Below are positions 8,968 to 27,122 of a stretch of DNA of 64,000 bases, piece by piece. Source of the DNA: Pseudofrankia inefficax (GTDB lineage: Bacteria; Actinomycetota; Actinomycetes; Frankiales; Frankiaceae). The notes below the pieces were generated by a model. It made no database searches. It had not been told where the DNA came from and saw nothing but the letters and a program-made list of their open reading frames with translations. Both the position numbers and the translations under genes were made by a program. Positions within the stretch are counted from its first letter, which is position 1. Every line of letters begins with the position of its first letter. Location of the stretch: NCBI RefSeq assembly GCF_000166135.1, contig NC_014666.1, positions 6,510,001 to 6,574,000 on the forward strand. Direction: 5' to 3'.

Positions 8968-9894
8968 ATGATCGACTCGAAGTACCGGTACATCACGTAC
9001 GAGTCCCTGGACGACGGGACGATCGTGCGGATCATGCTCAACCGCCCCGAGACGAGGAACGCCCAGAGCCGGGGTCTCCTGGTGGAGCTGGGCGAGGCTT
9101 TCCTGCGGGCCGAGGCGGACGACACGGTCCGAGTCGTGATCCTCGGCGGCCACGGCCCGATGTTCTCGACGGGCCACGACATGGGCTCGAAGGAGGGACG
9201 GGCGGACCACGCGCCCGGGCCGAACCAGCACCCGTCGGCGACCGTCAACGGCGCGACCCGCCAGGGCGCGGAGAAGCTGATGCTGCAGGAGTGGCACCAC
9301 TTCTTCGAGAACACCCGCCGGTGGCGCAACCTCCGCAAGATCACCATCGCGGCGGTGCACGGGCAGGTCTACGCCGCCGGCCTCATGCTGATGTGGGCCT
9401 GTGACCTGATCGTCGCGGCCGAGGGGACGACCTTCGCCGACATGGTCGGGACCCGGCTCGGCATGTGCGGGATGGAGTACTTCGCGCACCCGTGGGAGTT
9501 CGGCCCGCGCAAGGCCAAGGAGCTGCTGCTGACCGGCGACTCCATCGACGCCGACGAGGCGCACCGGCTCGGGATGGTCTCCAAGGTCTTCCCGGCGGAC
9601 GAGCTGGCCGACAGTGCCGTGGCCCTGGCCCGGCGCATCGCGGGCATGCCCACGATGGCCGCCCTGATGATCAAGGAGTCGGTCAACCAGACCGTCGACA
9701 ACCAGGGCTTCTACAACGCGCTGAACGCCTGCTTCACGCTGCACGAGCTGAACCACGCCCACTGGGCCTGGGTCCACCAGGGCGGTTTCCCGGTCGCGAC
9801 GCCGGCCGAGGACGGCGTCCCGGACTGGCGGACCAGCCCGCCCGTGCTCCCGGCGCTGCGTGGCTTCGCCGCGGCCCCCGACCCGGTCGGTTGA
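8968..9894 (+). CDS. Enoyl-CoA hydratase/isomerase family protein, 308 aa
   Basis: Crotonase-fold enzyme acting on enoyl-CoA thioesters. The first oxyanion-hole region reads FSTGHDMGSKEG and the second is VHGQVYAAGLMLMWACDLIVAA. Compared with ordinary crotonases of about 260 aa it is longer, mainly because of a loop of about 35 residues after the GHDM motif (rich in Gly, Pro and His) and a C-terminal extension. The start is ATG 8968 with GGTGGAAAGG upstream. The next gene begins 5 nt after the stop. The function could be hydration, isomerisation or another crotonase reaction. Confidence 0.88.
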   Translation: MIDSKYRYITYESLDDGTIVRIMLNRPETRNAQSRGLLVELGEAFLRAEADDTVRVVILGGHGPMFSTGHDMGSKEGRADHAPGPNQHPSATVNGATRQGAEKLMLQEWHHFFENTRRWRNLRKITIAAVHGQVYAAGLMLMWACDLIVAAEGTTFADMVGTRLGMCGMEYFAHPWEFGPRKAKELLLTGDSIDADEAHRLGMVSKVFPADELADSAVALARRIAGMPTMAALMIKESVNQTVDNQGFYNALNACFTLHELNHAHWAWVHQGGFPVATPAEDGVPDWRTSPPVLPALRGFAAAPDPVG

Positions 9895-9898
9895 CGCC

Positions 9899-10882
9899 AT
9901 GGAGAACACGGTGAGCGCTGAGGCCGCCGAAGTCGACCTTGACGCGAGAATTCGTTGCAGCGACTGGTCCCGGGTCACCTCGCTGTCCCCGGCCGGGACC
10001 GCTGGGACCTACCCCGGCTACCTGCTCGTCGAGCTCCCGCTGCCCTGGCCCCGCGATGTCGCCGAGGCCCCCGAGGCCGCCGCGCTCGCGCCGCTGCTGG
10101 CCTCGACCGGCTACCGGCTGCAGGCCGTCGTCCCATCGGACCCGGCGGCGGCGCCCGCCGAGCGTCGGGTGATCCTGCACGCGCGCCCGCCCGGCCAGCG
10201 GTGGTTCGCCGGCTACCGCCGGTTCGAGCGCCCGGTCGGCGTGTCGCTGCCCGAGGCCGTCGCCGACCTGCTCGCGGCCGCCGCCGAGCCGGGGCCGTCG
10301 CGTCTCGAAGCGCCGGCGATCGACGTCCTGGTCTGCGGCCACGGCACCCGGGACAGCTGCTGCGGCCGGCTGGGCGCCGGGCTCACGGCCCGGCTCGGCG
10401 CCGTCGCCGCGCCGGACGGCGTGACGATCTGGCGGACGAGCCACCTGGGTGGCCACCGGTTCGCCGCGACCTTCCTGCTGCTGCCGGAGGGCACGTCCTG
10501 GGCCTACGGCGACGTCGAGCTCGTCGAGACCGTGCTGCGCCGCAAGGGCGACTTCGACGCCGTCGCCGGCTACTACCGCGGCTGCTCGGGCGTCGACGGC
10601 CCGCAGGCGCAGGCACTGGAGGGCGAGGTCGCGCGCCAGGTGGGCTGGAGCCTGTTGGACTCGCCCAGGACCAGCACGTTCGACGGCTCGCGCGCGGACC
10701 TGACCTGCGTGTATGACGGCGAGACGGTCACCTGGTCCGCTCAGGTCGGCAAGGGCCGTGCCGTCTCGATGCCCGACTGCCAGAGCCCGCCCTCATCCGC
10801 GACCAAGACCCAGTCCGAATGGGCGGTCTCGGCGATCACTCGCGACCAGCACCTGCCATCACCTGACGGAGGAACCACATGA
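9899..10882 (+). CDS. Sucrase/ferredoxin-like family protein, 327 aa
   Basis: The chain matches the sucraseferredoxin-like family, a thioredoxin-fold group related to 2Fe-2S ferredoxins. The cysteine-rich loop VCGHGTRDSCCGRLG and the downstream WRTSHLGGHRFAATFLLLP segment are its hallmarks. Role in this family is poorly defined; an electron-transfer or redox role is plausible next to an aldehyde dehydrogenase and a P450. The ATG at 9899 is chosen because it lies just after the hydratase stop; a GTG at 9911 is an alternative. Its stop overlaps the next start as ATGA, so translation is coupled to the aldehyde dehydrogenase. Confidence 0.8.
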   Translation: MENTVSAEAAEVDLDARIRCSDWSRVTSLSPAGTAGTYPGYLLVELPLPWPRDVAEAPEAAALAPLLASTGYRLQAVVPSDPAAAPAERRVILHARPPGQRWFAGYRRFERPVGVSLPEAVADLLAAAAEPGPSRLEAPAIDVLVCGHGTRDSCCGRLGAGLTARLGAVAAPDGVTIWRTSHLGGHRFAATFLLLPEGTSWAYGDVELVETVLRRKGDFDAVAGYYRGCSGVDGPQAQALEGEVARQVGWSLLDSPRTSTFDGSRADLTCVYDGETVTWSAQVGKGRAVSMPDCQSPPSSATKTQSEWAVSAITRDQHLPSPDGGTT

Positions 10883-12345
10883 CTTTCGCGGGACTGAACG
10901 TCGCCAAGCTGCTCATCGACGGTCAGCTCGTCGATGCGGAGGGTGGCGCCACCTACGAGAACATCAACCCGGCGACCGAACAGTCGATCGGCGTCGCGGC
11001 GGATGCCTCGACAGGCGACATCGACGCGGCCATCGCCGCGGCCCGCAGGGCCTTCGACGAGACCAGCTGGAGCACGGACGTCGCCCTGCGGATCCGCTGT
11101 CTGCGTCAGCTGCACGAGGCGCTGTCGAAGCACGCGGAGCCGTTCAAGGCGATGATGACCGCCGAGGTGGGCCTGCCCACCAAGATGGTCGGCTCGACGT
11201 TCGACATGCCGGTCGAGAACGTCGGCTGGGTGACCGACCTGCTGGAGAAGTACGAGTTCAGCCAGGACCTGGGCCTCGGCAGCATCGAGGGCTTCGGCGC
11301 GCACCGCTGGACCGAGCGGGAGCCCTATGGGGTCGTCGGCGCGATCGTCCCGTGGAACCAGCCGCTCCAGGTCGCCCTGGCGAAGGTGGCGCCGGCGCTG
11401 GCCGCCGGGAACACGGTGATCCTCAAGGGCCCGCCGACCACTCCGTGGTGCGTCAGCGCCCTGGGCAAGCTCGTCGCCGAGTACACGGACATCCCGGCCG
11501 GCGTCTTCAACGTCATCACCAGCTCGGCCAACGATCGGGGCGAGGAGCTGATCACCGACCCGCGGGTCGACCTGATCAGCTTCACCGGCTCGACCGCCGT
11601 CGGCCGTCGCATCATGGAACTCGGCGCCCAGACCGTGAAGAAGTGCTTCCTGGAGCTGGGCGGCAAGTCCCCGAACATCGTCTTCGAGGACGCCAACCTG
11701 CAGCAGGGGATCGGCATGTCGACCTTCATGGTCTGCCTGCACGGCGGCCAGGGCTGCGCCACGCTGTCGCGCCTGCTGCTGCCGCGGTCCATCTTCGAGC
11801 AGGGCGTGCAGATCGCCACCGCGATGCTCTCGGCGATGCCGTACGGCGACCCGCTCGACCCGAACAACGTGATGGGCCCGCTGAACAGCGCCCGGCACCG
11901 GGACAGGGTCGAGGCCATGGTCGACCGGGCGGTCGCCGCCGGCGGCACGCCGATTCTCGGCGGACGGCGCCCACCGCAGCTGGAGACCGGCTACTACTTC
12001 GAGCCGACGCTGTTCGCCGACCTGCCGGAGGACGCGGAGATCGTCCAGAACGAGGTCTTCGGCCCGGTTCTCGTCATCCAGGCGTTCGAGGACGAGGACG
12101 ACGCGGTCCGGATCGCGAACAACACCATCTTCGGGCTTTCCGGCGCCGTCTTCTCCGGCGACCACGAGAAGTCCAAGCGGGTGGCCCGCAAGGTCCGCGC
12201 CGGCACGATGATCGTCGACGGCGGCATCTACTACGGCTCGGACGTCCCCTTCGGCGGTTACAAGCAGAGCGGCATCGGGCGCGAGATGGGCCAGATCGGC
12301 TTCGAGGAGTACCTCCAGGTCAAGGCGCTGTGCGAGCCGGCATGA
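10879..12345 (+). CDS. NAD(P)-dependent aldehyde dehydrogenase, 488 aa
   Basis: A standard-length aldehyde dehydrogenase oxidising an aldehyde to the acid. Catalytic elements are visible: Asn160 in VPWNQPLQ, Glu259 in ELGGKSPN, and nucleophile Cys293 in HGGQGCATLSR. The C-terminal EVFGPVL and the closing GGYKQSGIGREMG are also present. The start overlaps the preceding stop by four bases (ATGA). A P450 gene follows after 76 nt, so hydroxylation and aldehyde oxidation may belong to one pathway. The substrate is unknown. Confidence 0.94.
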   Translation: MTFAGLNVAKLLIDGQLVDAEGGATYENINPATEQSIGVAADASTGDIDAAIAAARRAFDETSWSTDVALRIRCLRQLHEALSKHAEPFKAMMTAEVGLPTKMVGSTFDMPVENVGWVTDLLEKYEFSQDLGLGSIEGFGAHRWTEREPYGVVGAIVPWNQPLQVALAKVAPALAAGNTVILKGPPTTPWCVSALGKLVAEYTDIPAGVFNVITSSANDRGEELITDPRVDLISFTGSTAVGRRIMELGAQTVKKCFLELGGKSPNIVFEDANLQQGIGMSTFMVCLHGGQGCATLSRLLLPRSIFEQGVQIATAMLSAMPYGDPLDPNNVMGPLNSARHRDRVEAMVDRAVAAGGTPILGGRRPPQLETGYYFEPTLFADLPEDAEIVQNEVFGPVLVIQAFEDEDDAVRIANNTIFGLSGAVFSGDHEKSKRVARKVRAGTMIVDGGIYYGSDVPFGGYKQSGIGREMGQIGFEEYLQVKALCEPA

Positions 12346-16014: not shown

Positions 16015-16947
16015 TCAGGGCTCTACGACGACGCGGAAAGTGCCCTTGGATCTGTCTCGGGCGGCCTCGAAGGCGGCGGGGGCGTCGTCGATCGGGTAGC
16101 GGCCCGTGATCAGCAGTTCGGGCAGCTCGGGGCGGGCGACCAGGAGGTCGGCGACCTCGGCGAACTCGCGCCGGCCGTCGGGGCTGCCGCTGTACCCGAG
16201 CGAGGGCCGCAGCGCGACCTCCTTCAGCGCCAGCTTCGAGTGCGGCAGCGCGGTGTCCTCGAAGATCCCGACGTAGACCACGGTTCCCCGCTGCCGAGCG
16301 AGCTCGATCGCCCGGTGCAGGGCGGCCTCGCTGCCGCCGGTCTCGATGACCACGTCATAGAGACCACGGGGCTCGCCCGCGCCGAGGCGTTCGCGGGCCG
16401 CGTGCTGGTGCGGATGGCGAGCCTCGACGGCCACCTCGACGGCGCCCAGGGCCTGGGCCGCGGCGGCGGCGAGGATGCCGATCGCGCCGGCCCCGACGAC
16501 CGCGACCCGGCTGCCGGGCCCGACCCCGCCGAGCCGGCAGGCGTGCCAGGCGACCGACCCGGGCTCGACCAGGCAGGCGTTCCGGACCGCGAGCCCGGCG
16601 GGCAGCGTCAGCAACGCGCGGCGTGGAGCGCGGAAGTACTCGCACATCCCGCCGGGCGCGGTCATCCCGAGCGCGGTCTCCAGCAGGTTCGCGCAGAACT
16701 GGTAGTTGCCGTCTTCGCAGTGCTCGCAGTGCCCGCAGCCGGTGATCGCCTCGACGGCGACGGGGGTGCCGTCACCGAGGACTCCGGCGATCTCGTGGCC
16801 GGCGATCTGCCGGCTCCCGTAGCGCAGGTAGAGGAAGTCCGAGGCGCAGATGCTGACCGCGGCCACCTTGACCAGCTCACCGTCGCCGGTCGGCTCCTCG
16901 ACCTCGACAACCTCGACACCTGGCGGCGCGTTGCGGACCGCCTTCAT
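16015..16947 (-). CDS. Zinc-dependent medium-chain alcohol dehydrogenase, 310 aa
   Basis: An MDR-superfamily NAD(P)-dependent alcohol or polyol dehydrogenase. The catalytic-zinc Cys is in SICASDFLY and the His in AGHEIAG. The structural-zinc loop CGHCEHCEDGNYQFC has four cysteines. The Rossmann motif is VAVVGAGAIGILAAA. At 310 aa it is slightly short for the family (340-350). The ATG at 16947 overlaps the stop of the upstream VOC gene (ATGA), so it is the third gene of a coupled operon with a DUF35-thiolase fusion and a VOC protein. Substrate unknown. Confidence 0.92.
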   Translation of the reverse strand: MKAVRNAPPGVEVVEVEEPTGDGELVKVAAVSICASDFLYLRYGSRQIAGHEIAGVLGDGTPVAVEAITGCGHCEHCEDGNYQFCANLLETALGMTAPGGMCEYFRAPRRALLTLPAGLAVRNACLVEPGSVAWHACRLGGVGPGSRVAVVGAGAIGILAAAAAQALGAVEVAVEARHPHQHAARERLGAGEPRGLYDVVIETGGSEAALHRAIELARQRGTVVYVGIFEDTALPHSKLALKEVALRPSLGYSGSPDGRREFAEVADLLVARPELPELLITGRYPIDDAPAAFEAARDRSKGTFRVVVEP

Positions 16948-17441
16948 GCGCCCGCCTCCTGGACGTCGGCCGGCGTCGCGGCGAGAAGCACCTGCATGTC
17001 GCGCAGCACCGAACGGTTGACCACTTCGATCCGCAACCCGGTGCCGGTCGTGTGGTACGCGAACCCGCTCGGCCGGGTCGGGCCCCTGCCGCACATCTCC
17101 AGCGGCAGGCCGGCCTCGGCCAGCGCCCGGGACGACGCGACGAGGTCGTCCACGAAGTAGCCGATGTGGTGGATCCCGCCGCCTGGCGCCGGCACCCAGG
17201 TCGTGCCGGGGACCTGTTCGATCAGTTCCAGGAGCGGCTCGTCCAGCGAGTAGACCATCCGCAGCGGCACCGCCGACTCGCCTGCCGGGGTCCAGACGCC
17301 GGTCAGGTGCTCGACCACCGGCCTCCACCGGTAGCCGGCCAGCCAGGTGAGCTGCTCCATCGAGGCGCGCAGGTCCTCGACCACGACGCAGGCGTGGTAG
17401 AGGTCCGCCGCGTGCAGGGGCAACGGGCAGGGCTGATCCAT
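16944..17441 (-). CDS. VOC-superfamily protein, 165 aa, methylmalonyl-CoA epimerase-like
   Basis: A vicinal-oxygen-chelate protein with two beta-alpha modules (DLYHACVVVEDLRASMEQLT and IHHIGYFVDDLVASSRALA). His and Glu residues at metal positions (YHAC, LLELIEQV, IHHIGY) resemble methylmalonyl-CoA epimerase or glyoxalase proteins. Its start abuts the stop of the DUF35-thiolase fusion, and its stop overlaps the alcohol dehydrogenase start. That context suggests isomerisation or hydration of a CoA ester intermediate, but this is inference. Confidence 0.85.
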   Translation of the reverse strand: MDQPCPLPLHAADLYHACVVVEDLRASMEQLTWLAGYRWRPVVEHLTGVWTPAGESAVPLRMVYSLDEPLLELIEQVPGTTWVPAPGGGIHHIGYFVDDLVASSRALAEAGLPLEMCGRGPTRPSGFAYHTTGTGLRIEVVNRSVLRDMQVLLAATPADVQEAGA

Positions 17442-19145
17442 CTAGGACCTCCGCAGCAGGATCGCGCCGGCGGGGGCGAGCCCACCGGTGCTGACGGCGA
17501 CGGCCGAGCAGCCGTCGACCTGGCGGGCTCCGGCCTCACCGCGCAGCTGGACCACGGCCTCGTGGATCATTCCCATGCCGTGGGTGCGGCCGGCCGAGAG
17601 CTGGCCTCCGTGCGTGTTCAGCGCGACGACCCCGCCCTCGCGGGCGATGTTGTGGCCGCCGGCGACGAAGTCGGCCGCCTCGCCGATGCCACAGAACCCC
17701 AGCGCTTCCAGCCAGGACAGGCAGTTGAAGCTGAACCCGTCGTACAGCTCGGCCACCTGGACGTCGGCCGGCCGCAGCGAGGTGCGTGACCACAGATGGG
17801 CCGAGGGCCCGAGCGTCTGCGGTTCGTGGCTCATCGTGCTCTGGTGCCAGAGGAACCGCTCGGTCGTCTGGGTGCCGACCGCCTCGACCAGAACCGGGGG
17901 GTTCGCCAGGTCGGGCGTCGTCTCGACCGCGGAGACGACGCAGGCGAGGCTCGCGTCCATCGGCACGTCACAGTCGTAGAGCCCGAACGGGGTCGTGATC
18001 ATCCGGGCGCCGAGGTAGTCGTCCATCGTCAGTGGCTCGCGGTAGACCGCGTGCGGGTTGAGTGCCGCGTTCGCGCGCTGGTTGATCGCGATCCAGCCGA
18101 GCGCCTCGCGCGTCGCGCCGTAGCGGTGGAAGTAGTTCGAGGCGATCATCGCCAGGTTGATCGCGACCGAGCCGACCCCGTACGGCGCGACGTAGCCCTG
18201 CGCGCCTTCGACCCGCCCGACCCGGCCGATGCCGTAGGGGCTGCCACCGCCGGGGTTCGCCGCCCGCGCCCGAGCGGCGTACGTCGCCTGCCAGACCGTC
18301 CGGAAGCACAGGACGTGGCGGGCCAGCCCGCTGGCGACGGCGAGCATCGCGGCGACGACGGCGCCGCCAGGGCCGAAGGTCTCCGAGCCGCCGTTGTACC
18401 AGGTCGGCCGGATGCCGAGGGCGTCCGCGACCGCGGTCACGCCACCCTCGGTGAAGCCGCCGATCAGCTCGCCGCCGGGGAAGGTGGACAGCCCGTCGAT
18501 GTCGGACAGCTCGAGACCGGCGTCCGCCACCGCGTCCTTGGCCGCGGCGACGGCCAACGTGATCGGCGGCAGCATGAGCCGGCGCCCGACCGGGGACATC
18601 CCGATCCCGGTGATCGCCACCCGGTCCTCGAACTTGTCGGTCCGCGCCATCGGCCGGATCCGGCCGGCATGCTCGGCCGGGGAGATCGGGTCGTCGGGCA
18701 GATCCCCGACCACTGTGCCGGCGGTGTCTCGGACCGGTGCGAACACGGGTAGCCAGACGTCCTCCGCCGGCTCGAACCGGACCCGCACCCGCATCCCGAC
18801 CGCGGCCTCGTCGAGCGCGACGTCGACCAGGTTCGTCACCAGCCGCACCCGCGGGTCGTCGTCAAGGGCGACCCACGCGACGACGAACGGCGGCGGGAAG
18901 GCGGGCTCCCACGGCTGGTGGTTGACGGTCGTTCCCACGACCGTGCCGAGCCCGCTGACCTCGGCCGGGTCGAGGCGCTCCGAGTGGCAGTAGCAGCAGA
19001 CCGGCTGTGGCGGGTGCACCAGCGACGCGCAGTCCCCGCAGCGCTGGATCCGCAGGACACCGTCTCGGCCGGCCGTCCAGAAGAAGCCGTTGAGATCGTC
19101 GAGCGCCGGCAGGGGGCGGGGTGGAGGGCCCGCGTCGGACGTCAT
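17442..19145 (-). CDS. DUF35 OB-fold protein fused to thiolase-like lipid-transfer protein, 567 aa
   Basis: Residues 1 to about 165 are a DUF35 protein: a zinc ribbon (Cys36-x2-Cys39, Cys50-x2-Cys53) followed by an OB fold (FVVAWVALDDDPRVRLVTNL). From about residue 175 a thiolase-fold Ltp/SCP-x-like domain begins (DRVAITGIGMSPVGRR). It continues to NTHGGQLSAGRTHGMGMIHE at the end. In cholesterol side-chain degradation, Ltp2 and a DUF35 partner are separate proteins forming a retro-aldolase. Here both parts are in one chain, which supports a carbon-carbon lyase role. ATG 19145 is chosen; a TTG two codons upstream is possible. First gene of a three-gene operon. Confidence 0.87.
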   Translation of the reverse strand: MTSDAGPPPRPLPALDDLNGFFWTAGRDGVLRIQRCGDCASLVHPPQPVCCYCHSERLDPAEVSGLGTVVGTTVNHQPWEPAFPPPFVVAWVALDDDPRVRLVTNLVDVALDEAAVGMRVRVRFEPAEDVWLPVFAPVRDTAGTVVGDLPDDPISPAEHAGRIRPMARTDKFEDRVAITGIGMSPVGRRLMLPPITLAVAAAKDAVADAGLELSDIDGLSTFPGGELIGGFTEGGVTAVADALGIRPTWYNGGSETFGPGGAVVAAMLAVASGLARHVLCFRTVWQATYAARARAANPGGGSPYGIGRVGRVEGAQGYVAPYGVGSVAINLAMIASNYFHRYGATREALGWIAINQRANAALNPHAVYREPLTMDDYLGARMITTPFGLYDCDVPMDASLACVVSAVETTPDLANPPVLVEAVGTQTTERFLWHQSTMSHEPQTLGPSAHLWSRTSLRPADVQVAELYDGFSFNCLSWLEALGFCGIGEAADFVAGGHNIAREGGVVALNTHGGQLSAGRTHGMGMIHEAVVQLRGEAGARQVDGCSAVAVSTGGLAPAGAILLRRS

Positions 19146-19287
19146 GGCCAAATAATATATTTTCGACTTGAGACTTGCTACTTTAGATCCGGCGAGTCCG
19201 GATCCGGCTGGCGGAGACCTGACCAGCGCGGATGCCGCGATCGCGGATCTTGTGACGTGCGACAGTGGCCGACCACGGAGGCGCTAC
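19146..19287. promoter_or_regulatory. AT-rich divergent promoter region
   Basis: The 142-nt spacer between the minus-strand fusion operon and the plus-strand acyl-CoA dehydrogenase starts with AAATAATATATTTT (19150-19163), the most AT-rich stretch in this part of the window. It very likely holds the -10 region for the minus operon. I could not assign a clear -35 box or operator palindrome. Confidence 0.5.
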
Positions 19288-20592
19288 GTGTGGGAGTTCG
19301 AGACCGAGCCTGAGTTCCAGGAGAAGCTCGACTGGGCCGAGAGGTTCGTCCGGGAAGAGGTCGAGCCGCTGGACGCGCTCTGGCGGCACCGGGTGTTCGA
19401 GCGCCCGATCGACCCGACCATCGGAAGGATCGTCGGCCCGCTCAAGCAGCAGGTGCGCGACCAGGGGCTGTGGGCCTGCCACCTGGGCCCCGAGCTCGGC
19501 GGCCCGGGCTACGGCCAGGTGAAGCTGGCCCTGCTGAACGAGATCATCGGGCGGGCCGCCTGGGGGCCGGTCATCTTCGGTACGGCGGCGCCCGACACCG
19601 GCAACGCCGAGATCCTCGCCCACTACGGCACCGAGGAGCAGAAGCGCCTCTACCTGAAGCCGCTGCTGGACGGCGACATCGTCTCGTGCTTCGCGATGAC
19701 CGAGCCACAGGGCGGTTCCGACCCCCGGGTCTTCACCACCCAGGCCGTCCTGGACGGCGACGAGTGGGTGATCAACGGCCTGAAGTTCTTCGCGTCGCAC
19801 GCCAAGTGGGCCGCGTTCTACATCGTCATGGCCGTCACGAACCCGGACGTCGACATCCACCGCGGCGCGTCGATGTTCATCGTGCCGAAGGAGACGCCGG
19901 GCATCGAGATCGAGCGCAACATGGCGCTGTTCGGCCACGAGCCGGTCGGCGAGGGCACCCACGGCCTCGTGCGCTTCACCGACGTGCGCGTGCCGGCCGA
20001 GAACATCCTCGGCGGCGAGGGCCAGGCGTTCGCGATCAGCCAGACCCGGCTCGGCGGCGGCCGCATCCACCACGCGATGCGCACGGTCAGCCAGGCCCGC
20101 CGGGCGCTGGACATGATGGTCGAGCGGGCACTGAGCCGCGAGACCCGGGGCAGCCTGCTCGCCAAGAAGCAGTCCGTCCAGAACTACGTCGCCGACTCCT
20201 ACGCCGAGCTGATGCAGTTCCGCCTCTTCGTGCTCTACGTCGCCTGGCGCATCGACAGGATGAAGGACTACCAGGCCGTCCGCCACGACATCGCCGCGGT
20301 GAAGGTGCTGACCCCGCAGGTCATGCACAACATCACCCAGCGGGCGCTGCAGGTGCACGGCGCGCTGGGGACGACGAGCGACCTGCCGCTGAACGAGTGG
20401 TTCTCCGGCTCGATGATCCTCGGCCTCGCCGACGGCCCGAGCGAGGTCCACCGCCTCACGGTCGCCCGCGCGGTCCTCGCCCAGGGCAAGCCGGCCGAGG
20501 GCATGTGGCCGACCGCGTGGCTGCCGCTGCGGCAGGAGGCGGCCCGCAAGAAGTGGGCCGAGTTCCTCGACGCCGACGAGGTGAACGCATGA
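19288..20592 (+). CDS. Acyl-CoA dehydrogenase, 434 aa
   Basis: FAD-dependent acyl-CoA dehydrogenase of the long-chain/APH-linked type. The GTG at 19288 is preferred because GGAGG lies 6 nt upstream and the protein then begins VWEFETEPEFQEKL, a normal start. The longer frame from 19168 encodes unlike residues. Motifs are CFAMTEPQGGSDP in the middle domain, FFASHAKWAAFYIVM, and NEWFSGSMILGLADGPSEVH at the C terminus. Its stop overlaps the start of a phosphotransferase gene (ATGA). The same pairing occurs in eukaryotic ACAD10/11, where kinase and dehydrogenase cooperate on 4-hydroxyacyl-CoA. Confidence 0.92.
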   Translation: MWEFETEPEFQEKLDWAERFVREEVEPLDALWRHRVFERPIDPTIGRIVGPLKQQVRDQGLWACHLGPELGGPGYGQVKLALLNEIIGRAAWGPVIFGTAAPDTGNAEILAHYGTEEQKRLYLKPLLDGDIVSCFAMTEPQGGSDPRVFTTQAVLDGDEWVINGLKFFASHAKWAAFYIVMAVTNPDVDIHRGASMFIVPKETPGIEIERNMALFGHEPVGEGTHGLVRFTDVRVPAENILGGEGQAFAISQTRLGGGRIHHAMRTVSQARRALDMMVERALSRETRGSLLAKKQSVQNYVADSYAELMQFRLFVLYVAWRIDRMKDYQAVRHDIAAVKVLTPQVMHNITQRALQVHGALGTTSDLPLNEWFSGSMILGLADGPSEVHRLTVARAVLAQGKPAEGMWPTAWLPLRQEAARKKWAEFLDADEVNA

Positions 20593-21623
20593 CGACCGAG
20601 ACGCCGAGCATCGACGTCGCCGCGCTGGGGGCCTGGCTGGACACGCTCGACCTGCCGGGGAGCGGCCTGCCGGTCGAGGCGCGGCTGCTGTCCGGCGGGC
20701 GGCAGAACGAGATCTTCGAGATCCGCCGGGGCGACTTCGCGGCCGCGCTGCGCCGGCCACCCGTGGCCGCCCCGGCCGAGCGCGACGCCGGCATCCTGCG
20801 GGAGTGGCGGCTCATCGAGGCACTGACCGGGACCGACGTGCCGGTCGCCGACGCCATCGCCGCCTGCCCGGACCCGACCGTGCTCGGGCGACCGTTCTAC
20901 CTGATGGACGTCGTCGACGGCTGGTCGGTCATGAACACGCCAGGCTGGTGGCCGGAGCCGTTCGACACCGACCGCGCCGCCCGCGACCAGCTGGCGTACG
21001 AGCTGATCGAAGGCATCGTCCGGATGGGCGCCGTCGACTGGCGGGCCCGCGGCCTCGGTGACCTGGGCCGGCCGGACGGCTACCACGACCGGCAGGTCGA
21101 GCGCTGGACCCGCTTCTACCAGCGCATCCGGGCCAGGGAGATCCCCGGGTTGGACGAGGCGACGGCCTGGCTGGCCGTACACCGGCCGCTCGATTTCGTG
21201 CCGGGCGTCATGCACGGCGACTACCAGTTCCCCAACGTGATGTTCCGCCACGGCGCGCCCGGCCGGCTCGCGGCCATCCTCGACTGGGAGATGGGCACGG
21301 TCGGCGACCCGAAGCTGGACGTCGCCTGGGCGCTGCACAGCTGGCCGGAAGACCCGGACGGCCCGTCGGACAACGAGTTCCTGGTCGGCATGCCGGGCCG
21401 CGCCAAGCTGCTGGACTTCTACGCGGAGCGCTCGGGGCGGCAGGTCGACGACTTCGACTACTACCTCGTACTGGCAAAATGGAAACTCGCGATCGTCCTC
21501 GAGCAGGGCTACCAGCGGGCGAACGGCGATCCCAAGCTCGAGGACTTCGGCGGCTACGTGGTCACGTACATGCGGGAGGCGGCCGACATTGCCGAGTCGA
21601 GCGACTACCCCGCGGTGTCGTGA
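20589..21623 (+). CDS. APH-family phosphotransferase linked to acyl-CoA dehydrogenase, 344 aa
   Basis: A kinase-fold protein of the aminoglycoside phosphotransferase/choline kinase group. The Brenner-type catalytic loop is MHGDYQFPNVMF and the metal-binding segment is AILDWEMGTVGDPKLD. The N-terminal lobe has LLSGGRQNEIFEI. Despite the family name, the context argues against antibiotic resistance: it overlaps an acyl-CoA dehydrogenase gene by four bases, and in ACAD10/11-type systems the kinase phosphorylates 4-hydroxyacyl-CoAs so that the dehydrogenase domain can complete the conversion. That role here is inference. Confidence 0.88.
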   Translation: MTTETPSIDVAALGAWLDTLDLPGSGLPVEARLLSGGRQNEIFEIRRGDFAAALRRPPVAAPAERDAGILREWRLIEALTGTDVPVADAIAACPDPTVLGRPFYLMDVVDGWSVMNTPGWWPEPFDTDRAARDQLAYELIEGIVRMGAVDWRARGLGDLGRPDGYHDRQVERWTRFYQRIRAREIPGLDEATAWLAVHRPLDFVPGVMHGDYQFPNVMFRHGAPGRLAAILDWEMGTVGDPKLDVAWALHSWPEDPDGPSDNEFLVGMPGRAKLLDFYAERSGRQVDDFDYYLVLAKWKLAIVLEQGYQRANGDPKLEDFGGYVVTYMREAADIAESSDYPAVS

Positions 21624-21748: not shown

Positions 21749-22441
21749 GTGAGCACCCATGACGTCGACCCGAGGCTTGCCTCGGGTCGACGCCCCTACG
21801 GCAACCTCAAGGACGAGGCCGCGAGCTTCCTCCGCGACGCGATCGTCTCCGGTGCGCTGCCGCCGCACAGCAAGATCGACCAGGACCAGGTCGCGGACAC
21901 GCTCGGGATCAGCCGGGCCCCGGTCCGCGAGGCCCTCATCGAGCTGGCGCAGAAGGGCTTCGTCGACGCGATACCGCGCCGCGGCGCGTTCGTCGCCGCG
22001 GTGACCGTCGAGGACATCGAGGACCACTACGAGGTGGTGGCGCTCGTGTCGGCGATGACGGCGAAACGGGCGGTCAAGCGGCTGACCCCGGCCCAGATCG
22101 ACGAGCTGCGCCGGCTGGACCAGGAGATCGCCGCGACCACCGACGTGGTCCGGGTACGGGACCTCGACCGCCGGTTCTTCCACCTGATCGCGAACGCGGG
22201 CCGGTCACCGCGCCTCGACACGATTCTGCGGTTCCTCGGCGGCGCCCTGCAGGGCAGCTTCTACTTCGACGCGCCCGGCTGGGCCCCGCACGAGGCCACC
22301 TACCGGCAGCAGATGCTCGGCGCCATCGATGCGGGCGACGTACTGGCCGCGGCCCGGATCAGCGAGGAGCACGTCCGCCGCTGCGCCACCCTGTCCGTCG
22401 ACCACCTCCGCTCCCGCGGCTACTGGCCCGACGCCGCCTGA
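21749..22441 (+). CDS. GntR-family regulator with FCD domain, 230 aa
   Basis: The N-terminal winged helix (LRDAIVSGALPPHSKIDQ, then ADTLGISRAPVREALIELAQ) and C-terminal all-helical FCD domain (DLDRRFFHLIANAGRSPRLD, with His residues for metal or ligand) define the FadR subgroup. These regulators respond to organic acids or acyl-CoAs. The likely start is GTG at 21749. It lies 125 nt downstream of the dehydrogenase-kinase pair, which it may regulate. A 12-bp perfect inverted repeat occupies codons about 6-15, an odd location. A repeat element follows the gene. Confidence 0.88.
   Translation: MSTHDVDPRLASGRRPYGNLKDEAASFLRDAIVSGALPPHSKIDQDQVADTLGISRAPVREALIELAQKGFVDAIPRRGAFVAAVTVEDIEDHYEVVALVSAMTAKRAVKRLTPAQIDELRRLDQEIAATTDVVRVRDLDRRFFHLIANAGRSPRLDTILRFLGGALQGSFYFDAPGWAPHEATYRQQMLGAIDAGDVLAAARISEEHVRRCATLSVDHLRSRGYWPDAA
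21764..21791. promoter_or_regulatory. Perfect inverted repeat at start of GntR gene
   Basis: GTCGACCCGAGG, loop CTTG, then CCTCGGGTCGAC: a perfect 12-bp dyad 15 nt after the GntR start codon. It could be a translation-attenuating mRNA hairpin or a DNA operator for autoregulation. Confidence 0.5.
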
Positions 22442-25904: not shown

Positions 25905-27122
25905 CTAGGCGACGACGCCGTTGACCTTCAGTTCCACGATGGCGTCCCAGTCGAAGCCGAGCTCGGCGAGGATCTCGTCGCCGTGCTCGTTGAACTCGGG
26001 GGCGTGGCCAGCGGGCGCCGCCTTCCCGCCGAACCGCACCGGTGCTGCGACCATCTGGAACGGCTTGCCGGCCGCGGTCTGGGTGTCCTGGATGTAGCCG
26101 TTGGCGACCGACTGCGGGTCGGCCGCCGCCTCCAGGGTGTCCTGGACGACGGTCCACTGGCCGTCGAAGTCCGCGAGCAGCTCGCGCCACTCGGCCAGCG
26201 GGCGAGCGGAGAACACCGAGCGCAGGACGTCCCCGGCCTCCAGGCCGTTCGCCATCAGCGTCTGGTGGCTGTCGAACCGGGGGTCGGTCGCCAGCTCGGG
26301 CCGGCCGACGGCCGCGCACAGCGCCGGCCAGTACTTGCCCGCCTGCAGGCAGCACAGCGCGACCCAGCGCCCGTCCGCGGTCTGGTAGTTGGCGACCAGC
26401 GGGTTCGTCCGCATCATCTCCGCGGGCGGCGGCTGCCAGGGCACGTTCATCAGGAGCGACAGCGCGAACGCCTGGCCCATCGCCCACATCCCGGTGCCCA
26501 GCAGCGAGACGTCGACCTCGGTCGTCTCGCCGGTCCGCTCCCGGTGGAACAGCGCCCCCATGATCCCGCCGGCGATCGTCATCGCGCCGATCGAGTCGCC
26601 GAACCCCGGCCCGGGCGGCGAGACCACCTGGCCGTACTCGGGCCGGCTGAGCCCGACGGCCGTGCCGGACCGGGCCCAGAAGGCCAGCGAGTCGTACGAG
26701 CCACGGTCGGCGTCGGGGCCTTCCTCGCCCTGACCGGTGCCGCTGGTGTAGATGATCCGCGGGTTGTGCGCGCGCACCGAGTCCAGGTCGATCTTGAGCT
26801 TGTTCCGGACCCGGGGCAGCTTGTTGGTGAGGAAGACGTCCGACGTGGCGATCAGCCGGTGCAGGACGTCGAGGCCCGCCTCGCTGGTCAGGTCCAGGCC
26901 GAGGCTGCGCTTTCCGCGGTTCGAGTGCTCCAGGAGCACGTGGACGTCGGAGGGAAGATCCACCACGCCGCTGGACGCGAGGCCCCGCATCGCGTCGCCG
27001 CGCTCGACGTGCTCGATCTTGATGACCTCGGCGCCCCAGTCCGCCAGCAGCGCGGACGCCGCCGGGACGAAGGTGTGCTCGGCGACCTCAAGAATCCGAA
27101 CACCGTGCATGATCGCCGTCAT
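25905..27122 (-). CDS. Family III CoA-transferase (CaiB/BaiF), 405 aa
   Basis: A single-domain family III CoA-transferase starting MTAIMHGVRILEVAEHTFVP and containing LLADWGAEVIKIEHVERGD. Unlike the protein at 3632, it keeps the expected active-site Asp in GFGDSIGAMTIAGG. It also has ALFHRERTG, the conserved segment before the C-terminal part. It would exchange CoA between carboxylic acids or act as a racemase. ATG 27122 is used; ATG 27110 (MHGVR) is an alternative. It lies downstream of the mycofactocin-type SDR gene but is separated from it by a strong hairpin. Confidence 0.9.
   Translation of the reverse strand: MTAIMHGVRILEVAEHTFVPAASALLADWGAEVIKIEHVERGDAMRGLASSGVVDLPSDVHVLLEHSNRGKRSLGLDLTSEAGLDVLHRLIATSDVFLTNKLPRVRNKLKIDLDSVRAHNPRIIYTSGTGQGEEGPDADRGSYDSLAFWARSGTAVGLSRPEYGQVVSPPGPGFGDSIGAMTIAGGIMGALFHRERTGETTEVDVSLLGTGMWAMGQAFALSLLMNVPWQPPPAEMMRTNPLVANYQTADGRWVALCCLQAGKYWPALCAAVGRPELATDPRFDSHQTLMANGLEAGDVLRSVFSARPLAEWRELLADFDGQWTVVQDTLEAAADPQSVANGYIQDTQTAAGKPFQMVAAPVRFGGKAAPAGHAPEFNEHGDEILAELGFDWDAIVELKVNGVVA

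Follow-up and report, generated by a model that had tools for sequence, protein, structure and literature searches.

Among the steroid aldolases of thiolase-like fold, enzymes that are wanted as biocatalysts, two active-site types have been dissected in the available part of the literature: Tyr/Tyr in Ltp2 and Tyr/Cys in Sal. In Ltp2 of Thermomonospora curvata (TcLtp2), Tyr294 of the YDHF motif acts as base and Tyr344 as acid, with His296 forming the oxyanion hole; in Sal of Comamonas testosteroni (CtSal) the catalytic pair is Tyr302/Cys304, with Gln352 in place of Tyr344 (PMC12329534, in the portion available). Proteins in which DUF35 is fused to thiolase superfamily members were already mentioned in 2010 (PMC2954200, likewise available in part). 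We regard one such fusion from the soil actinomycete Pseudofrankia inefficax, with a slight lean in favour, as a putative one-chain retro-aldolase for 3-hydroxyacyl-CoA of the DUF35/thiolase-like kind, having an active-site pair of its own, Gly470/Arg520.

The window, the whole stretch of 64,000 nucleotides that was analysed (NC_014666.1, positions 6,510,001 to 6,574,000), encodes this 567-residue protein at 17442..19145, as identified by its open reading frame and by Pfam and PDB sequence matches. The initial annotation had placed the gene correctly and left the strand, which is minus, unstated. The start codon is taken as the ATG at 19145, upstream of which a clear Shine-Dalgarno sequence was not seen, and a TTG at 19151 is a possible alternative. 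Pfam finds a rubredoxin-like zinc ribbon, zf-ChsH2 (residues 23-58; 18972..19079, minus strand; E-value 2.3e-9), and an OB fold, OB_ChsH2_C (residues 62-125; 18771..18962, minus; 6e-14), which together identify DUF35 (PF12172, 37.3 bits against a cut-off of 23.2; PF01796, 52.2 bits against 27.1). Judged by sequence only, Cys36, Cys39, Cys50 and Cys53 of the ribbon form a C4 pattern, CxxC...CxxC, and not the C3H1 zinc site found in the DUF35 protein of Sal. A thiolase-like domain follows (residues 170-567; 17445..18638, minus), recognised by Pfam (Thiolase_C_1, 3.6e-29), PDB sequence match and model fold. The closest solved sequence to the C-terminal 400 residues is TcLtp2 (6ok1_A, 2e-50) and that to the N-terminal 130 residues is the ChsH2 DUF35 (6ok1_B, 9.2e-22), and none of the 22 distinct PDB sequences matched covers both halves in its best stretch. 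The Pfam and both PDB matches thus bear out the proposed union of DUF35 and a thiolase-like domain in one chain, and single-frame whole-chain homologues in many genomes rule out chance or a frame error as its cause. The coupling to two downstream genes that had been described also holds: the TAG stop of the fusion directly abuts the ATG of a VOC protein gene (Glyoxalase_4; 16944..17441, minus), which overlaps by ATGA with that of a zinc-dependent alcohol dehydrogenase (ADH; ADH_N and ADH_zinc_N; 16015..16947, minus).

The AlphaFold2 model of the 567-residue chain has a pLDDT of 91.9 and a pTM of 0.92, values which suggest that DUF35 is placed fixedly on the thiolase-like domain. In the structural comparison with Ltp2/DUF35 complexes that the initial annotation had proposed, the thiolase-like half fits well: VIA-align, whose list concerns the thiolase part only and has no bearing on the docking of DUF35, ranks 6ok1 first (Z 43.7, rmsd 2.3, 372 residues aligned, 34% identity). 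Sequence and model fold agree in making this a thiolase-like fold nearest to Ltp2. Close behind come the thiolase-like 4u4e (Z 42.2) and 7yvy (Z 40.4), and further on Sal (Z 39.7), SCP2-thiolases (up to 39.7), benzoylsuccinyl-CoA thiolase (38.8) and PhlABC, MucABC and CsATase (36-37). Since other thiolase-like folds score so closely, the predicted fold alone does not single out aldolases.

Sequence alignment with TcLtp2 sets Tyr468-Asp469-Gly470-Phe471 (17733..17744, minus strand) against Tyr294-Asp-His296-Phe, and Arg520-Thr-His522 (17580..17588, minus) against Tyr344-Ile-His346. Tyr468 thus stands for the base Tyr that Ltp2 and Sal share, while the oxyanion-hole His296 and the acid Tyr344 of Ltp2 have given way to Gly470 and Arg520, all three residues being present in 28 of 28 representatives of the clade described here; the Sal acid Cys304 is not kept either, Gly470 being found instead, and the Gln352 position holds Arg520. 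To obtain these representatives, distinct thiolase domains no shorter than 300 residues were taken from the window and loci L009-L111, 94 in all, and reduced at 70% identity to 47. Of the 47, 28 have Tyr-Asp-Gly, in every case with Arg at the Tyr344 position; the remaining 19 include one that is gapped at this position, and Arg occurs in 0 of the 18 others. The 28:18 ratio is not a natural frequency, since sampling went by similarity to the query. The clade is marked as well by an acidic residue at Glu255 (24 of 28 representatives versus 1 of 19 others). The initial annotation's aldolase reading, against which it had said that a loss of aldolase residues or a common fusion with an unrelated activity would count, therefore stands in part. 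It agrees with the Ltp2/DUF35-type halves, the Ltp2-DUF35 fold ranked first, the invariant base Tyr and the missing nucleophile Cys; the replacement of Tyr344 by Arg520 and of His296 by Gly470 and the absence of Cys304 go against it, both known acids being gone, so that what had been named as counting against the reading has come true by half.

In an IQ-TREE phylogeny of 48 rows with midpoint root (46 representatives and two references, with one gapped row dropped and the two trait columns left out), a branch supported at 98/94 separates the 28 YDG-R representatives from the other rows, so that the fusion does not fall inside the Ltp2 group. Together with eight rows that include TcLtp2 (94/82 among themselves) they form a group at 100/98. 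Because all 28 lie on one side of a single branch, the Gly-Arg pair changed once on this tree, and an independent covariation of Gly470 and Arg520 can therefore not be claimed; it is the constancy of the pair after a single change, not a repeated origin, that suggests that it matters. Nine of the ten fused representatives form one group (100/100) and the tenth, L054, is drawn apart; a second, separate fusion event at L054 was not adopted, as one origin is not rejected (p-AU 0.335). A DUF35 domain lies within 200 bp of 17 of the 18 unfused clade representatives, with one representative lacking it, and it is encoded upstream on the same strand in 14 (including the overlapping L032_4123), downstream in two and divergently in one. 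As the DUF35 gene is thus mostly upstream and on the same strand, the fusion follows the commonest order of DUF35 and thiolase-like genes. Among the papers listed in the literature searches there was none on the YDG-R clade, and no member of it with a tested activity was found.

The fusion is not a rarity: it is found widely among related bacteria. In a sample across the phylum, single-frame full-length versions occur in at least 9 of 198 genomes, and in one across the class in at least 27 of 197, both lower bounds since no more than seven candidates per genome were scored; in the family they occur in 21 of 35 genomes, the window's own genome being included in all three samples; in the class sample 34 genomes matched, seven of them over the thiolase part only. 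Together with the mention in 2010 (PMC2954200, part available), the class count shows the one-chain form to be common, a point that does not favour the initial annotation's interpretation. The P. inefficax genome, searched as one contig of 8,815,781 bases, holds four fused copies, of which the other three are 56-59% identical to that of the window, as well as many unfused thiolase-like genes and 22 DUF35 OB-fold places, four of them inside the fusions. One of these fused paralogues (L041:8971-10674) lacks the last of the four zinc-binding Cys in its ribbon (CPRG), and its zinc site may for this reason be altered. A pattern scan limited to a single genome from each species detected 24 loci, which belong to Frankia and its relatives, Streptomyces, Mycobacterium, Nocardia, Actinophytocola and others, 22 of these loci being one called fused gene; L024 was called in part only, and the Sphingomonas locus L032 consists of two adjacent genes without fusion. 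The linker between DUF35 and the thiolase-like domain measures 22-63 residues, with a median of 27, in 53 fused proteins (near-copies included). In Sphingobium sp. V4 (L097:7923-9527) the two frames are in register with a single stop codon between them, one substitution away from a fusion, and at L094:2552-4872 two tandem, overlapping thiolase-like genes, perhaps an Ltp3/Ltp4-like pair, lie beside a frame with two DUF35 domains.

The genomic neighbours differ widely between lineages. Among 44 loci compared, the coupled VOC and ADH form clusters of four members each (the window, L009, L010 and L012), all Pseudofrankia-like, and the two were for this reason rejected as obligatory partners of the fusion; in Streptomyces sp. 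NBC_00080 (L077) a VOC gene and a zinc-binding dehydrogenase lie near the fusion, uncoupled. In that stretch (L077:2299-12770) a conventional thiolase gene shares an overlap with the start of the fusion; MaoC, crotonase and VOC genes lie upstream, and the dehydrogenase faces the fusion downstream. Neighbours within 8 kb were counted at 28 fused loci (what remained, after dereplication at 80% identity, of the 56 in which a fused gene was called; the input was 63 loci, four of them unfused by design) against 20 control stretches of the P. inefficax genome alone, from which other thiolase loci were not purged; the search models were partly seeded from the same loci and several contigs end early. 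Read with these caveats, the counts for fused loci versus controls are 20 versus 1 for P450, 14 versus 2 for CaiB, 14 versus 4 for SDR, 11 versus 2 for ACAD, 10 versus 1 for ALDH, 8 versus 1 for HIBDH-like proteins, 8 versus 2 for amidohydrolases, 6 versus 1 for alpha/beta hydrolases, 6 versus 2 for AMP ligases and 6 versus 0 for APH, with enoyl-CoA hydratase (ECH) not clearly enriched (7 of 28 versus 4 of 20). The annotated fused loci L075 and L078, missed by the gene caller, have annotated neighbours of the same kinds, and CaiB, P450, ALDH and fusion follow in this order in three loci (L041, L143 and L146). In the 147 further neighbours covered (of 159), TetR regulators, thioesterases and transporter binding proteins are the most frequent Pfam families, and luciferase-like monooxygenases also occur; MaoC is not among the 25 commonest families, and L077 has both MaoC and crotonase. 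Directly after the fusion, three loci (L078:11601-12704, L148:4730-5839 and L149:8037-9149) encode a protein of about 368 residues, 62-79% identical between them, whose L148 copy gave no Pfam match.

Around the fusion in the window, a divergent acyl-CoA dehydrogenase gene (19168..20592, plus strand; Pfam), with an uncertain start that the gene caller sets at 19288 and in an arrangement kept in L009-L012, is followed by genes for an APH-family phosphotransferase (20589..21623, plus; Pfam) and a GntR/FCD regulator (21749..22441, plus; Pfam). Farther away lie an enoyl-CoA hydratase/isomerase (8968..9894, plus; 7.5 kb from the fusion), an Rv0768-like aldehyde dehydrogenase (10879..12345, plus; 649 bits, below the family cut-off of 775), a cytochrome P450 (12422..13612, plus; Pfam and a further family match) and a CaiB-type CoA-transferase (25905..27122, minus; Pfam), and the window as a whole holds acyl-CoA dehydrogenases, CoA ligases, CoA-transferases, an amidohydrolase and aldehyde dehydrogenases. 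A second VOC-type protein (Glyoxalase_6; window:14433-14759) adjoins a MerR/GyrI-like regulator.

The evidence for steroids as substrates from annotated loci is mixed and thin. Steroid-named genes are absent from four annotated fused plasmid loci, and at the unfused clade member of Rhodococcus sp. WAY2 (L111) the DUF35 gene is two genes from an annotated 'steroid 3-ketoacyl-CoA thiolase'; in L111:247-4568 this member stands in one run with the latter and an amidohydrolase. The label of a steroid side-chain enzyme in the strict sense was not adopted, because Tyr344 and His296 are replaced. On a plasmid of R. oxybenzonivorans S2-17, a benzophenone-3 degrader, the fusion lies beside a CoA ligase and a P450, with an ALDH further on; the strain was dropped as a functional lead, as the literature listings on it showed no function for the fusion.

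In our best reading the fusion would be a retro-aldolase, or a C-C lyase related to one, with an active site of a third type. Retro-aldol cleavage of a CoA ester is favoured by the DUF35 partner, the kept base Tyr, the missing nucleophile Cys and the place in the tree, and the neighbouring genes suggest hydrophobic, P450-oxidised compounds activated as CoA esters. The domains, the fusion and its spread, the conserved residues, the clade and the neighbourhood are direct results of the analysis; for the reaction, the substrate class and the roles of Arg520 and His522 we infer the following scheme. An acid from such a compound would be converted to its CoA ester by CaiB or a ligase, then desaturated and hydrated to a 3-hydroxyacyl-CoA, from which the fusion would release a short acyl-CoA together with an aldehyde or ketone, the latter to be removed by a dehydrogenase. 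Tyr468 would take the beta-hydroxyl proton, Arg520 could fill the room left by Gly470 and hold the enolate in place of His296/Tyr344, and His522, Arg520 or a bound water might deliver the proton. In this scheme DUF35 would stay docked permanently and give the substrate pocket its shape, making a separate partner or a hydratase tether unnecessary. An aldolase needs a hydratase acting before it, and the want of a regular hydratase neighbour, together with the loss of both known acids, holds our preference for an aldolase to a slight one. Somewhat short of an even chance, and offered tentatively, is the broader proposal that the YDG-R clade represents a third, as yet undescribed, catalytic type among DUF35-dependent C-C lyases, with Arg taking the place of the proton-donating Tyr or Cys. 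Enzymes of this type would shorten the side chains of diverse P450-oxidised natural products, in actinobacteria either fused or split and in proteobacteria split, as far as seen.

It is rather unlikely that the fusion instead performs a retro-Claisen or hydrolytic C-C cleavage of a beta-ketoacyl-CoA (or aryl ketone), with Arg520 holding the enolate and no beta-hydroxy substrate. The higher counts of amidohydrolases (8 of 28 fused loci versus 2 of 20 controls) and alpha/beta hydrolases (6 versus 1) would fit such a role, and nearby dehydrogenases could make the ketone first; however, all 28 clade representatives retain the counterpart of the Tyr that accepts the proton of the hydroxyl group in Ltp2 and Sal, and amidohydrolases can carry out such C-C cleavage themselves (CouO-like). 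An invariant Arg could also bind a carboxylate, as in a decarboxylase or some other acyl-CoA lyase that acts on a carboxylated acyl-CoA through Tyr468/Arg520, and weak malonyl-CoA decarboxylation is described for the related TbSLP; yet CtSal is without such activity in the available part of the same paper (PMC12329534), and with no sign of a diacid substrate seen in the sequence we consider this improbable.

A Cys-dependent thiolase or PhlC-like acyltransferase with a built-in DUF35 would have the same fold, and both PhlABC and benzoylsuccinyl-CoA thiolase use DUF35 as far as the accessible literature goes. Nevertheless, the thiolase nucleophile column, an approximate one in a gapped loop, holds Cys in 0 of 28 clade representatives (versus 2 of 19 others), the clade groups with Ltp2-like rows and the Z scores to those folds are lower. 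This assignment is thus very improbable, and identity as a thiolase proper was rejected for want of the nucleophile Cys, in so far as the aligned column can be trusted. The loss of the known acids would also be expected of an inactive scaffold or lipid-binding protein, comparable to the dead thiolase partners of multi-enzyme complexes, and PhlA has been called an inactive member of the thiolase superfamily (PMC2954200, part available), but active-site positions kept over 28 divergent representatives are not expected of dead enzymes, which makes this the least probable of the alternatives.

If the retro-aldolase reading is correct, a widespread third, Gly/Arg type tethered to DUF35 would offer a simple one-chain enzyme in which to ask why DUF35 is needed, and it could extend the choice of cleavable side chains. 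The YDG-R clade further draws attention to a large set of genes that on plasmids are annotated only in generic terms ('OB-fold domain-containing protein' or 'thiolase family protein'). The fusions in the 2010 SSO2064 paper (PMC2954200) have the same architecture and, in the portion available, are named in a list without clade, residues or function. Of the characterised systems, Ltp2-ChsH2 of T. curvata (6ok1) shares the thiolase-like fold, a C4 zinc-ribbon DUF35, the base Tyr in YD-x-F and His346 (His522 in the fusion), but consists of two chains rather than one, has His296 and Tyr344 where the fusion has Gly470 and Arg520, and belongs to a separate clade; moreover, the known DUF35 of Ltp2 is part of the hydratase ChsH2, whereas the fusion carries DUF35 on its own chain. 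Sal-Shy of C. testosteroni (9myr) likewise combines a thiolase-like fold, a DUF35 partner (Shy) and the base Tyr, and differs in that the fusion has no equivalent of Cys304, Arg at the position of Gln352 and a C4 instead of the C3H1 zinc site; similarity to it is also lower, at a Z of 39.7. Atf1/ChsH4 of Mycolicibacterium neoaurum, compared here by description only, resembles the fusion as an aldolase with a stand-alone DUF35 gene and no hydratase-DUF35, but is encoded by two genes and is 56% identical to Sal1 (PMC10398937, available part). The PhlABC/MucABC acyltransferases and benzoylsuccinyl-CoA thiolase are thiolase-fold proteins as well, with a DUF35 partner in PhlABC and benzoylsuccinyl-CoA thiolase according to the literature available, but they are built from separate chains and are structurally less similar to the fusion (Z 36-39). 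The fusion may thus work like an Ltp2 or Sal enzyme, yet be a member of neither.
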